Below are positions 32,781 through 38,712 of a stretch of 64,000 bases of DNA, piece by piece; positions within the stretch are counted from its first letter, which is position 1; each line of letters starts with the position of its first letter. Origin of the DNA: Phenylobacterium sp. (lineage in GTDB: Bacteria; Pseudomonadota; Alphaproteobacteria; Caulobacterales; Caulobacteraceae); contig NZ_JAUYAW010000009.1 of assembly GCF_030693405.1 (NCBI RefSeq), positions 17,812-81,811 of the forward strand, in the 5' to 3' direction. Below the pieces are notes generated by a model, which was not told the DNA's origin, did not search any database, and saw only the letters and a list, made by a program, of their open reading frames with translations. The position numbers and the translations under genes are program-made.

Positions 32781-32809
32781 TTGTTCTTTTGTGCGCCGCA
32801 CCGTAGATT
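32781..32809 (+). promoter_or_regulatory. Promoter of the small RNA gene
   Basis: TTGTTC (32781-32786), a 17-bp spacer and TAGATT (32804-32809). The first base of the hairpin-rich transcript lies 7-8 nt downstream, as expected. Confidence 0.6.
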
Positions 32810-32816
32810 TTCACCG

Positions 32817-32900
32817 TGAGGCGTCTCCGGACGTCTCTGCCCTTCCTGGGCGTTTCCTCCCTAATGAACTGGCCGCGCTTTCGAGCGCGGCCTTTTTTTT
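32817..32900 (+). ncRNA. Three-hairpin trans-acting small RNA, alpha-r14/suhB-like
   Basis: About 84 nt in a protein-free interval. Hairpin 1 pairs GAGGCGTC (32818-32825) with GACGTCTC (32830-32837) around TCCG. Hairpin 2 pairs GCCC (32839-32842) with GGGC (32848-32851) around TTCCT. A single-stranded CGTTTCCTCCCTAATGAA follows, and then a perfect terminator: GGCCGCGCT-TTCG-AGCGCGGCC followed by eight T. A CCUCCC stretch able to pair with Shine-Dalgarno sequences, plus a terminal GC hairpin, is the plan of the alphaproteobacterial alpha-r14 (Rfam suhB) RNAs. RNA existence is likely; the family name is from memory of its pattern. Confidence 0.75.
32871..32900 (+). terminator. Rho-independent terminator of the small RNA
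   Basis: A 9-bp perfect stem GGCCGCGCT/AGCGCGGCC with a UUCG tetraloop, then TTTTTTTT. No protein gene on the plus strand precedes it, which is the main argument for the RNA gene. Confidence 0.93.
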
Positions 32901-32920: not shown

Positions 32921-33823
32921 TCAGCGCAGCGCCGACCAGTCGTGCGCCGTCAGCGCCACGGTCAGGGCGGCGATGTCGGCCTTCAGGCGGGCGAAGCCGG
33001 CGGTCGGCGACAGGGTGTTTTCGTCTAGATAGAGGCCGCGGTTCAGCTCGATCTGCAGGGCGTGGACCTTGCGGGCCGGGCGACCATAGTGCTCGGTGGT
33101 GTAGCCGCCGGCATAGGGCGTGTTGCGCACCACCCGGTAGCCGCGGGCCTCCAGCTCCACCTCGGCCAGTCGGGTCAGGGCGTTGGCGCAGGCCGAGCCG
33201 AAACGGTCGCCCAGGACCATATCGCAGCCGCCGGCGCCGGCCGCCCTGGCGGCGGCGGAGGGCATGGAATGCCAGTCCACCAGTATGGCGACCCCATGGG
33301 CGGCCTGGGCCTCGGCGATCAGGCCGCTCAGGGCCTCATGATAGGGCCGGTGGGCGCCTTCGATGCGGCTCTGGGCCTCGGCGAAGGTCAGCTTGCGCGC
33401 ATAGATCTCCTGGCCTTCGGAGACCACCTTGGCGATGGCGCCCAGGCCTGCGGCCACCCGGGCGGTGCGGCTGCGGGCGAAGTCCGGCAGGGCGTCGGCG
33501 AACATGGCCGGGTCGAGTTCGAAGGCGTCGCGGTTCACATCTATATAGGCGCGCGCATAGTTGGCGGTGATCAGGGCCGCTCCGGCCTGCGGCGCGCTGT
33601 CCACCAGCTGGTCGACAAAGGCGTCTTCGGAGCGGCGGATGGCCTGGGCGTCGAGCCTGGCCGCCGACATCATGTCGTCCGGATAGAGCCGGCCCGAATG
33701 GGGCGAGGCGAAGATCACGGGGGTCCGGGGCGGGGCGCCGGGCTCCGCGGTGCGGCGCACCTCGAAGCCCGCCGGCGCCAGGGCGGCCGGCTCTGCGACA
33801 TCAAGGGGCTCGACCGCGGACAT
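32921..33823 (-). CDS. N-formylglutamate amidohydrolase family protein
   Basis: About 300 aa from MSAVEPLDVAEP (33823); ATG 33832 is nearly as good and neither has a strong ribosome site. Family motifs are IFASPHSGRLYPDDM (metal His), RRSEDAFVDQLV, AYIDVNRDAFELDP, VDWHSMPS (metal-binding), DMVLGDRFG and ALQIELNRGLYLDE. The family includes HutG-type enzymes that hydrolyse N-formyl-glutamate to glutamate and formate at the end of one histidine route. No other hut gene is in the window, so the histidine role is inference. It is divergent from cpdR. Confidence 0.9.
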   Translation of the reverse strand: MSAVEPLDVAEPAALAPAGFEVRRTAEPGAPPRTPVIFASPHSGRLYPDDMMSAARLDAQAIRRSEDAFVDQLVDSAPQAGAALITANYARAYIDVNRDAFELDPAMFADALPDFARSRTARVAAGLGAIAKVVSEGQEIYARKLTFAEAQSRIEGAHRPYHEALSGLIAEAQAAHGVAILVDWHSMPSAAARAAGAGGCDMVLGDRFGSACANALTRLAEVELEARGYRVVRNTPYAGGYTTEHYGRPARKVHALQIELNRGLYLDENTLSPTAGFARLKADIAALTVALTAHDWSALR

Positions 33824-33853
33824 GGCGCGCATATGACGATGCGCCGGGCGCGG

Positions 33854-33892
33854 GGTCAAACGGATCGGGGGTCAAACGGACCTGGTCAAAGG
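33854..33892. repeat. Short direct repeats upstream of cpdR
   Basis: GGTCAAACGGA occurs at 33854-33864 and 33870-33880, and a partial third copy GGTCAAAGG at 33884-33892. They lie in the 143-bp region between the divergent amidohydrolase and cpdR genes. A regulator site array is possible; chance duplication is not excluded. Confidence 0.5.
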
Positions 33893-34418: not shown

Positions 34419-34493
34419 GGACGCGTAGCTCAGCGGGAGAGCACCTCGTTGACATCGAGGGGGTCACAGGTTCAATCCCTGTCGCGTCCACCA
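34419..34493 (+). tRNA. tRNA-Val (anticodon GAC)
   Basis: A 75-nt cloverleaf. The acceptor stem is GGACGCG with CGCGTCC, then discriminator A and an encoded CCA. The D-arm is GCTCAGCGGGAGAGC. The anticodon stem-loop is CCTCG-TTGACAT-CGAGG, giving anticodon GAC (Val codons GUC/GUU). The T-arm is ACAGG-TTCAATC-CCTGT. All stems pair fully. Confidence 0.97.
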
Positions 34494-35319: not shown

Positions 35320-35730
35320 CGCGCGCGTCTTGGCCTGATTCGTGGCGGTGAAGCGCGGCGTGGCCTGGCGCGACGCCAGCCCCCGCCGAGTCGCTATAGA
35401 AAATACGGTATTGTCAAAAAGGGGGCGCTATCGCCTGCGTTACGCCCCGCTTCAATGGGCGCCCTTAGGGAAGCCGGGCGCGCTGGGCCCCCCGAATGTA
35501 ACGTCGGAAGGGGTTACATCAAAGGTTGTAGAAGGCGGGGTACGCTCGCAACCCCTTAAGCCGTAAGGGTTTCGCTACAGAAACTTGCATGACGGTCAAA
35601 TAGTCTGGATATGTCTCCCCGTTGAAAAAATTCTGGCGCTTTTGCAAAAGGTGCCGGATGATCGTTTTTGCTCACGGGTCAAAATCCCCACGCCATAAGG
35701 GGATCGGCGCCAAGAGGGGGAAGGAAACCA
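35320..35730. other. 411-bp intergenic region upstream of TonB receptor
   Basis: No convincing gene; the 74-aa ORF at 35342-35566 lacks a ribosome site and protein-like composition. It contains an inverted repeat TGTAAC-N10-GTTACA at 35497-35518, and an AT-rich stretch from about 35570 that should hold the receptor promoter. I looked for a B12 box or other riboswitch core and did not find one. Confidence 0.5.
35497..35518. promoter_or_regulatory. Inverted repeat TGTAAC-N10-GTTACA, candidate operator
   Basis: Perfect 6-bp arms 22 bp end to end, 213 bp upstream of the TonB receptor start. The symmetry suits a dimeric repressor or activator such as GntR or TetR type; the protein is unknown. Confidence 0.4.
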
Positions 35731-38712
35731 ATGTTGAAACGTACCTATTTCTGCGGCGGCTCGGTCATGGCTGTCGCCCTGGCCATGGGAGCCGCCGGTT
35801 CGGCCGCGGCCCAGGCTCAGCCGACGGTGGTCGAGGAAGTCGTCGTCACCGGCTCATTCATCGCCGGCACGCCGGAAGACGCCGCCCTGCCGGTGGACGT
35901 CCTCGGCGCGGCGGAACTGGAGCGCCAGGGCTCGCCCAGCATCGTCCAGCTGGTCAAGACCATCAGCGCCTCGCAATCCGCGCTCGGCGAAAGCAACCGC
36001 TATAACGGCGGCGCGGGCACCGCGACCATCAACCTGCGCGGCCTCGGCGCCTCGCGGACCCTGGTCCTGATGAACGGCCGTCGTCTGGCCGACTCCACCC
36101 AGGCCGCCTTCCAGGGCGGTGGTCAGGACCTTGGCTTCATCCCCACGGCCGCGACCGGCCGGGTGGAAATCCTGAAGGACGGCGCGGCCGCCACCTACGG
36201 CTCCGACGCCGTCGGCGGCGTTGTGAACTTCATCACCCGCAAGGACCTGAACGGCTTCGAAATCGACGCCGACTACCTGTTCGTGGATGGCTCCGACGGC
36301 GACTACACCCTCGATGTCGCCTGGGGCAGCCTGTTCGACCGCGGCAATGTCCTGCTGACCGCCGGCTACCGCCACCGCTCGCGCCTGGACATCAACGAGC
36401 GTGACTGGGCCCGCACGCCCATGGACGCCGTTTACTACGGCGGCTGGTCGGGCTCCTCGAACCCCGGCTATTACGGCACGCCTGGCGGCACGACCTTCTT
36501 CCGGGACAACGGCTGTAATGAACTTGGCGGCCAGCTGACCGCGGGCGTGGTGCCCACCAGCAACACCGCCACCGGCAGCGTCTGCCGCTTCCAGTTCTCG
36601 GCCTTCAACGATCTGGTGAACGAGGAAGATCACTACCAGCTCTACGGCGAGCTGAACTTCGACGTCACCGACACCATCACCTTCCACGGGGAAGTGGCCT
36701 GGAAGCGCAGCGATGTGCCGAACCAGCGCCTGTCGCCGGCCAACCTCACCACCCAGTTCCCGACCCCGCGGACGGCGGGCGGCACCTCGGGCTCGACGGC
36801 GGTCCCCGGCTTCAACGGCCAGGTTCCGTACTTCGTGCCGGCCACCCATCCGGGTCTGATCGACCTGCGCACCCAGTGCGCGGCCCCGCTCTCCGCCGCC
36901 CAGTGCGCCGGCATGGCTGGCGGCGTGACGATGGCCAAGGCCTTCTGGCGCGCCATCGCCCACGCCGGTCACCCGACCAATCCCGACGGCGCCGACTACC
37001 AGGACATCCAGAACAGCTCTTTCCGGGTCTCCGGCGGCTTCAAGGGTGAGTTCGAGAACGGCATCGGCTGGGATGCGGCTCTGACCTACATGGAGACCGA
37101 ATCCGTCATCGTGACCAACGACCTGCTGGTGAACCGCATCCAGCATGCGCTCAATGGTCTCGGCGGTCCCGGTTGTAACCCGGCCACGGGCGTCCCCGGC
37201 GTCGGCCCCTGCCAGTACTTCAACCCCTTCACCAACAGCATCGCCACCAGCGCGGTGAACGGCGCGGCCAACCCCTACTATCGCGGCGGCGCCAATCCGG
37301 CGGTTCGGAACAATCCGGCCCTGGTGGAGTGGCTCTACGGCACCTACACCAACGTCGGCACCAACAACATCCTGGTGGCTGACCTGGTGTTCAACGGTGA
37401 GACCGGCATCGAGCTGGGCGGCGGCAACATCGCCTGGGCGGCCGGCGGCCAGTATCGCTACAGCCGTTCGCGGGATGACTGGGAAAACCTGGGCGACGTC
37501 CGGGCCACCCCTTGCGTCGACTCCATCGATGACGGTCTGCCGATCTGCTCTGACCCGGTCGGTCCGTTCGTCTTCTTCGGCGCCCAGGAAGACTATGATG
37601 TCGACCGGGACGTCGAGGCCCTGTTCGCCGAAGTCCGTCTGCCCTTCACCGACGACTTCGAAGTCAGCGCCGCGATCCGCCACGAGGAGTTCGGCGGCCA
37701 GGTGGGCTCCACCACCAACCCGAAGATCTCCGCCCGCTGGCAGGCCACCGACTGGCTCGCCTTCCGCGGTTCGGCGGGCACCACCTTCCGCGCCCCTGGC
37801 CAGACCCAGATCTCGCCGGGCAGCAGCAAGGGCGTGTCCAACATCGGCGGCAGCTATCGCGCGGTGGTGACCAACAATAATCCGGGCCTGCAACCGGAAA
37901 CCGCCAAGACCTATAACTTCGGCGTGCTGCTCAACACCGGCGCCTTCAAGGCGTCCGTCGACTACTTCAAGTTCGACTTCGAGGACGAGCTGGTTCTGGA
38001 ACCCACCCAGGCCATCTATGACTCCCTGAACTGCTCGAACGCCGCCATCGTCGCGCGCTTCATCTTCGACGGCGCCTGCTCGCCGGCGAACGTGATCAAT
38101 GTCAGCCGCTTCGTGGTCAACGGTCCCTCGACCAAGACCTCGGGCCTCGACTTCAAGGCGCAGTACGACTTCGACGACTTCTTCGGCACCGACATGGTTG
38201 ACGCCCGCGTCTCCATGGGTGTCGACGGCACCTATCTGCTGACCTATGACCGCAGCGACTTCACCCTGTTCGGGGCCGACAATGTGGTCATTCAGCGGGC
38301 TCAGGACCGGGTCGGCCGCCACGAGCTGACCGGGGAATTCTATTCCTACCCCCGTCTGCGGGCGACCGGCTTCGTCAACGTCAATGGCGGAACCTGGAAC
38401 GTTCGTTACCAGGTCCAGTATCGTGAAGGCACCGAGATCATCGGCGCCCCCTGCCCGGCCAGCGGCGCCAGCGCCGCCTGCCGTTACGATCGCGCCTCGG
38501 CCACCTTCATCAATGTGGGCAAGAGCGACGACTTCTGGCAGCACGACCTGACGGGTCAGATCGAACTGCCCTGGAACACCACCATCAACGCCGGCATCCA
38601 GAACATCCTGGATACCGATCCTCCCTTCGTGCAGTCGATGTACAACTACGACTACACCAACGGGAACCCGCTCGGCCGGACCTTCAAGATCGGCGTCAAG
38701 CAGCGCTTCTAA
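35731..38712 (+). CDS. TonB-dependent outer-membrane receptor (993 aa)
   Basis: The start MLKRTYFCGGSVMAVALAMG at 35731 has a strong GGAAGGAAA site; the track start adds 21 residues. A signal peptide ends near SAAAQA. It is followed by a TonB-box-like VVEEVVVTGSFIAG, a plug domain (VDVLGAAELERQG, INLRGLGASRTLVLMNGRRL, VEILKDGAAATYGSDAVGGVVNFIT) and a large beta-barrel ending in the typical aromatic terminus VKQRF. The length and plug fit the large carbohydrate/oligopeptide class of Caulobacterales receptors rather than classical siderophore receptors. The substrate is unknown. It is monocistronic, ending at a good terminator. Confidence 0.93.
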   Translation: MLKRTYFCGGSVMAVALAMGAAGSAAAQAQPTVVEEVVVTGSFIAGTPEDAALPVDVLGAAELERQGSPSIVQLVKTISASQSALGESNRYNGGAGTATINLRGLGASRTLVLMNGRRLADSTQAAFQGGGQDLGFIPTAATGRVEILKDGAAATYGSDAVGGVVNFITRKDLNGFEIDADYLFVDGSDGDYTLDVAWGSLFDRGNVLLTAGYRHRSRLDINERDWARTPMDAVYYGGWSGSSNPGYYGTPGGTTFFRDNGCNELGGQLTAGVVPTSNTATGSVCRFQFSAFNDLVNEEDHYQLYGELNFDVTDTITFHGEVAWKRSDVPNQRLSPANLTTQFPTPRTAGGTSGSTAVPGFNGQVPYFVPATHPGLIDLRTQCAAPLSAAQCAGMAGGVTMAKAFWRAIAHAGHPTNPDGADYQDIQNSSFRVSGGFKGEFENGIGWDAALTYMETESVIVTNDLLVNRIQHALNGLGGPGCNPATGVPGVGPCQYFNPFTNSIATSAVNGAANPYYRGGANPAVRNNPALVEWLYGTYTNVGTNNILVADLVFNGETGIELGGGNIAWAAGGQYRYSRSRDDWENLGDVRATPCVDSIDDGLPICSDPVGPFVFFGAQEDYDVDRDVEALFAEVRLPFTDDFEVSAAIRHEEFGGQVGSTTNPKISARWQATDWLAFRGSAGTTFRAPGQTQISPGSSKGVSNIGGSYRAVVTNNNPGLQPETAKTYNFGVLLNTGAFKASVDYFKFDFEDELVLEPTQAIYDSLNCSNAAIVARFIFDGACSPANVINVSRFVVNGPSTKTSGLDFKAQYDFDDFFGTDMVDARVSMGVDGTYLLTYDRSDFTLFGADNVVIQRAQDRVGRHELTGEFYSYPRLRATGFVNVNGGTWNVRYQVQYREGTEIIGAPCPASGASAACRYDRASATFINVGKSDDFWQHDLTGQIELPWNTTINAGIQNILDTDPPFVQSMYNYDYTNGNPLGRTFKIGVKQRF

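Follow-up and report, generated by a model that had tools for sequence, protein, structure and literature searches.

A FGase-linked alpha-r8 small RNA of Phenylobacterium, very probably the orthologue of SisA and MmgR, and a conserved promoter dyad that probably ties it to the carbon store

Among the alpha-r8 small RNAs, SisA (CCNA_R0014) of C. crescentus binds Hfq and represses TonB receptors and transporters by means of a 10-mer (Vogt et al. 2025, PMC12559287); binding of SisA/R0014 by Hfq is also reported in PMC11005374. On carbon starvation SisA is removed by the sponge RNA CrfA, and the same 10-mer pairs with CrfA and with the target mRNAs (PMC12559287). The sisA gene of Caulobacter adjoins a gene for N-formylglutamate amidohydrolase (FGase; PMC12559287), as do most alpha-r8 RNAs. 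The S. meliloti counterpart is MmgR (SmelC689), whose promoter is bound by S. meliloti PhaR in an electrophoretic mobility shift assay (EMSA), the PhaR/AniA motif of that organism being YGCRNYGCR (PMC12542648). According to the review PMC8401924, the mmgR promoter, which is under AniA/PhaR control, carries a dyad between its −35 and −10 elements. The two carbon signals, PhaR and CrfA, have so far been described in separate organisms.

The window analysed here (the whole 64,000-nt stretch of Phenylobacterium DNA) contains an 84-nt locus that was matched over the full length (1-77) of the Rfam model RF00519 (suhB, Makes More Granules Regulator/MmgR) by cmscan, with 61.8 bits against a gathering cut-off (GA) of 41 bits. 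On the sequence evidence it is a genuine sRNA gene, of an RNA type already known, and it is very probably an Hfq-dependent anti-Shine-Dalgarno repressor, orthologous to SisA of C. crescentus and MmgR of S. meliloti. Like sisA, the gene is an FGase-adjacent alpha-r8 gene with the seed UUUCCUCCCU in a genome that carries CrfA, and the reported SisA residues C40 and C45 match the seed numbering if the RNA starts at the presumed position 32817, which is consistent with orthology without being proof of it. It differs from SisA in belonging to another genus and in having two alpha-r8 copies in the genome compared to four. With MmgR it shares RF00519, a dyad in the −35/−10 spacer and the presence of the PHB regulator gene, whereas the Phenylobacterium RNA has an extra covarying 5′ hairpin, together with a CrfA sponge and predicted TonB-receptor targets where the S. 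meliloti work reports phasin effects. The features are collected in Table 1.

Table 1. Features of the alpha-r8 locus and related sites (numbers are window positions unless a locus handle is given)
Feature	Position	Strand	Basis
−35 element TTGTTC (conserved part TTG)	32781..32786	+	TTG in 96-99% of 69 homologous upstream regions chosen for the dyad core
Dyad GTGC-GCC-GCAC in promoter spacer, putative PhaR operator	32791..32801	+	core TGCGCCGCA (32792-32800) fits YGCRNYGCR
−10 element TAGATT	32804..32809	+	TA conserved 97-99% at fixed distance in the same regions; 17-nt spacer
alpha-r8 sRNA gene, sisA/mmgR orthologue (very probable), 84 nt	32817..32900	+	RF00519 match, fold, family conservation; transcript ends presumed
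5′ hairpin (hairpin 1)	32818..32837	+	outside the Rfam model; both-side changes in 7/8 pairs, 37 homologues
Hairpin 2, UGCCC-UUCCU-GGGCG	32838..32852	+	stem 100% identical, 37 sequences
14 nt GGGCGUUUCCUCCC (nt 32-45 of sRNA), perfect complement of same-genome CrfA	32848..32861	+	sequence
Seed UUUCCUCCCU, alpha-r8 anti-Shine-Dalgarno 10-mer, start of unpaired linker	32853..32862	+	invariant in homologues
Rho-independent terminator stem-loop, 9 bp, UUCG loop closed by U-A	32871..32892	+	8/9 pairs covary
U8 tract, 3′ end	32893..32900	+	sequence
FGase gene, convergent, synteny marker of the ancestral alpha-r8 locus	32921..33859	−	PF05013, E 7e-75
Predicted target site, −14 to −3 of TonB-receptor gene 35731-38712	35717..35728	+	11 pairs, one bulge, −16.4 kcal/mol
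Second RF00519 copy	L002:1501-1579 = G000:C32:12222-12300	−	57.9 bits
Phasin promoter, two PhaR-type dyads	L176:1227-1263		TTGTGCGGTGCACAA and GCTGCGGTGCAGC
alpha-r8 copies with LacI-like promoter palindrome	L086, L092, L095, L096, L100, L103, L108, L111		

The promoter and its dyad

A strict sigma-70 scan detected no promoter at the sRNA locus, and the elements were assigned by conservation instead. In the 69 homologous upstream regions, which were selected for holding the dyad core and in which the independent part of the evidence is therefore the fixed spacing with the flanking TTG and TA, the sequence TGC-NNN-GCA occupied one fixed position in the spacer. The TTG and TAGATT elements at 17-nt spacing were nearly invariant in these regions, so the promoter elements that the earlier note had read are real. 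The promoter pattern alone, searched in 60 genomes, gave 38 matches where the reversed pattern gave a single one; of 30 matches read, 29 were located just 5′ of an alpha-r8 seed.

Among 54 FGase-linked loci, 51 carried the dyad core in the corresponding position, against an expectation of 0.006 per shuffled sequence. A second, separate set comprised 32 copies; here the dyad was present in all 17 FGase-linked copies but in only 4 of the 15 others (Fisher p 1e-5). Both marks of a PhaR/AniA regulon were detected, namely a YGCRNYGCR dyad in the sRNA promoter and a phaR gene in the genome; phaR adjoins a thiolase gene and has two copies of the dyad core upstream. At the sRNA promoter, the fit to the S. 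meliloti PhaR motif is only partial in the AT-rich arms. We consider it likely that PhaR acts on the sRNA promoter in Caulobacteraceae, and the conserved dyad probably ties the sRNA to the cell's carbon store. Control of an alpha-r8 RNA by PhaR in this family appears to be unreported; PhaR goes unmentioned in the SisA paper (PMC12559287).

A less likely reading is that the RNA is the same and the dyad is the site of another regulator, or a general feature of the promoter. It would accord with the S. meliloti system, in which the same spacer element also matters for NtrC nitrogen control according to the review PMC8401924, and with C. crescentus, where SisA expression was almost constitutive in the conditions examined (PMC12559287) and gives no hint of PhaR control. 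Such a reading is, however, opposed by the matching dyads that the same genome has in front of phaR and in the phasin promoter, by the paralogous alpha-r8 copies that have other promoters and no dyad, and by the in vitro binding of PhaR to the mmgR promoter (PMC12542648).

Other operators were seen among the paralogues. The promoters of eight non-FGase alpha-r8 copies without the PhaR dyad contain a LacI-like palindrome, for example TGTTAGCGCTATCA or TGACAGCGCTGTCA, which suggests that these siblings may be sugar-controlled.

The locus, its fold and its family

The sRNA gene is flanked upstream by bipA, divergent on the minus strand, and its end lies 20 nt from the stop codon of the FGase gene, an adjacency that marks the ancestral alpha-r8 copy. 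The closest named relatives of the FGase are from Phenylobacterium and Caulobacteraceae genomes, with 95% protein identity at best, which places the organism in Phenylobacterium or very near it. A tRNA gene (34419-34490, plus strand; Rfam) lies 1.5 kb 3′ of the sRNA.

The genome contains two RF00519 copies, the one in the window and a second (L002) 38 kb away, which is flanked by a membrane-protein gene and an acetyltransferase-like gene. The existence of this second copy, with 57.9 bits, admits the reading that the window copy is a passenger, conserved but weakly expressed, and that the other does the work. This is improbable, as the window copy has the ancestral, syntenic place beside FGase, its counterpart sisA outnumbers its siblings in abundance in C. 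crescentus (PMC12559287), and the second copy lacks the conserved promoter. The second copy also has no GAGGCGUC-type 5′ hairpin and no PhaR dyad.

The folding of 32817-32900 gave a minimum free energy of −41.6 kcal/mol (z = −6.3), which was equalled or bettered in none of 200 shuffles. In an alignment of 37 distinct homologues, 95.3% of the cells of the three-helix structure were paired. Changes on both sides were observed in 15 of 21 pairs. Shuffles gave 6.8 +/- 1.3 such pairs, and sliding the structure never gave more than 10, indicating that the structure is conserved beyond chance; the covariation is located in the 5′ hairpin and the terminator hairpin. The stem of hairpin 2 and the seed showed zero variation, and are therefore uninformative on pairing and telling on constraint. 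The earlier note had proposed an 84-nt gene with three hairpins, which fold and covariation together confirmed. The other parts that it had described were likewise recovered: the unpaired CCUCCC region is the open linker that begins with the seed, and the strong UUCG-capped terminator with eight U is the only terminator detected between 32600 and 33000. Single-stranded UUUCCUCCCU lies between a hairpin and a Rho-independent terminator, as is characteristic of alpha-r8/suhB/MmgR RNAs. Hfq binding and a transcript of about 77-85 nt are further marks expected of the family, and an hfq gene is present in the genome. As the note had also stated, the 84 nt hold no protein: no real gene lies over the locus, the ORFs of at least 60 aa that nominally overlap it being bipA and FGase shadow frames.

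Of 149 Caulobacteraceae genomes, 146 carry RF00519, with all 21 genera represented and up to nine copies per genome. The earlier note had placed the RNA in a suhB/alpha-r14 class and had proposed a search with both Rfam models. The suhB half of this assignment was borne out by the RF00519 match, and the alpha-r14 half was not: RF00519 is the alpha-r8 family, not alpha-r14, and the ar14 model RF02344 gave no match at 32817-32900 even at E <= 10, its best scores elsewhere in the genome being about 21 bits (top 21.3) against a cut-off of 58.8. (RF02346 models ar35 and is irrelevant to the alpha-r14 question.) That the RNA belongs to alpha-r14 (NfeR1) or to another group of CU-rich anti-Shine-Dalgarno sRNAs is highly improbable, and the alpha-r14 reading is refuted by the missing RF02344 match unless divergent members escape that model. 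Alpha-r14 likewise has three hairpins and a CCUCCC motif (review PMC7143759), but RF02344 is silent where RF00519 gives 61.8 bits, and the alpha-r14 motif sits in all hairpin loops, whereas here it is single and lies in the linker. SorX (RF02784) resembles the RNA in its CCUCCCU and a similar terminator, with 34 bits, which is below its gathering score of 46.6.

That the locus is a terminator remnant or the 3′-UTR of a neighbouring gene, as its convergent end so close to the FGase stop codon might recall, is scarcely credible, since FGase lies on the opposite strand, which has no U tract, bipA is divergent, the sRNA has its own conserved promoter, and the seed is invariant while the flanks vary.

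Predicted seed partners

The unpaired seed (nt 36-47) was scanned against positions −35 to +5 at 154 5′ ends of this genome, 30 of them from TonB-receptor genes and 124 from others, with start codons assigned by a heuristic rule; a first scan with nt 30-52 had been discarded because the GGGC stem dominated it. The four strongest pairings among the 154 5′ ends were all with TonB receptors (chance 0.0012). The overall shift between TonB-receptor and other 5′ ends was modest (Mann-Whitney p 0.015), and 5.5% of shuffled seeds matched the contrast. The scan is support, not proof, for a predicted targeting of TonB receptors. The exact 10-mer target AGGGAGGAAA was absent from the genome except in the two sRNA genes themselves, implying that the targets use partial or bulged pairing.

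In the earlier note, the CU-rich segment was held to pair with ribosome binding sites, and two nearby TonB receptors, together with transporters, were named as candidate targets. The first idea agrees with the anti-Shine-Dalgarno seed and with the repression of TonB receptors and transporters by the Caulobacter family member (PMC12559287). The second is supported by prediction for one gene of the two: the pairing at gene 35731, 2.8 kb 3′ of the sRNA, was the second strongest of the 154 and was equalled by no non-TonB gene, whereas receptor 45606 offered no useful pairing, 73% of background genes being equal or better. The nearness on which that choice had been based is no reason for targeting, since the best predicted targets are spread throughout the genome. 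Beyond the window, the TonB-receptor genes L172 and L174 showed seed pairing of −20.2 and −16.0 kcal/mol directly before their starts, the former being the best predicted target seen.

The genome was also searched with the seed-core complement GGGAGGAA, blind to CrfA. Among the sites read was a CrfA homologue (RF01527, 62.3 bits; G000:C14:57255-57391, outside the window), a hairpin in the intergenic space that separates hisG from a gene for an M13 peptidase. Its loop sequence GGGAGGAAACGCCC is a perfect complement of 14 nt of the sRNA (nt 32-45), so that the complementarity to CrfA expected of an RNA with SisA function is apparent here. The duplex of sRNA nt 32-46 with the CrfA site was calculated at −32.2 kcal/mol, compared to −28.5 for the best of 1970 random window segments, and the cofold gain of the two RNAs was 13.4 kcal/mol. 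CrfA was found in 139 of 149 Caulobacteraceae genomes, and its loop was identical in all 31 CrfA loci read. The homologue here has the loop of the Caulobacter-type genomes; it differs in its score, 62 bits compared to about 160 in the closest genomes.

A proposed carbon circuit

In the first step of the proposed mechanism, the one read directly in the DNA, the conserved promoter would drive a covarying three-hairpin RNA with the invariant UUUCCUCCCU exposed. On Hfq, whose gene is present in the genome, the seed would pair with the ribosome binding sites of TonB-receptor and other mRNAs and block their translation, as the orthologues do. PhaR on the dyad between −35 and −10 may keep transcription repressed until PHB granules titrate the regulator, and during carbon starvation CrfA, the partner found through the seed complement, may capture and remove the sRNA. 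Carbon surplus would then raise the sRNA and lower the uptake systems, and starvation would switch the sRNA off both transcriptionally and via CrfA.

We lean towards the view that the FGase-linked alpha-r8 RNA of Caulobacteraceae joins transcriptional control by PhaR (the PHB store) with removal by CrfA (starvation), and that its duplicated siblings lost the dyad and took other operators, some of them LacI-like. The sRNA gene itself is ordinary, and what is added is a circuit visible from sequence alone, in which conservation across the examined Caulobacteraceae genomes extends to the sRNA, the sponge with its match and the operator alike. This bridges the MmgR literature (PHB, PhaR) and the SisA/CrfA literature (TonB receptors, starvation), which were developed in different bacteria, and raises the question of whether PhaR represses sisA in Caulobacter. 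If the view is true, a single RNA would tie stored carbon to TonB-dependent uptake.
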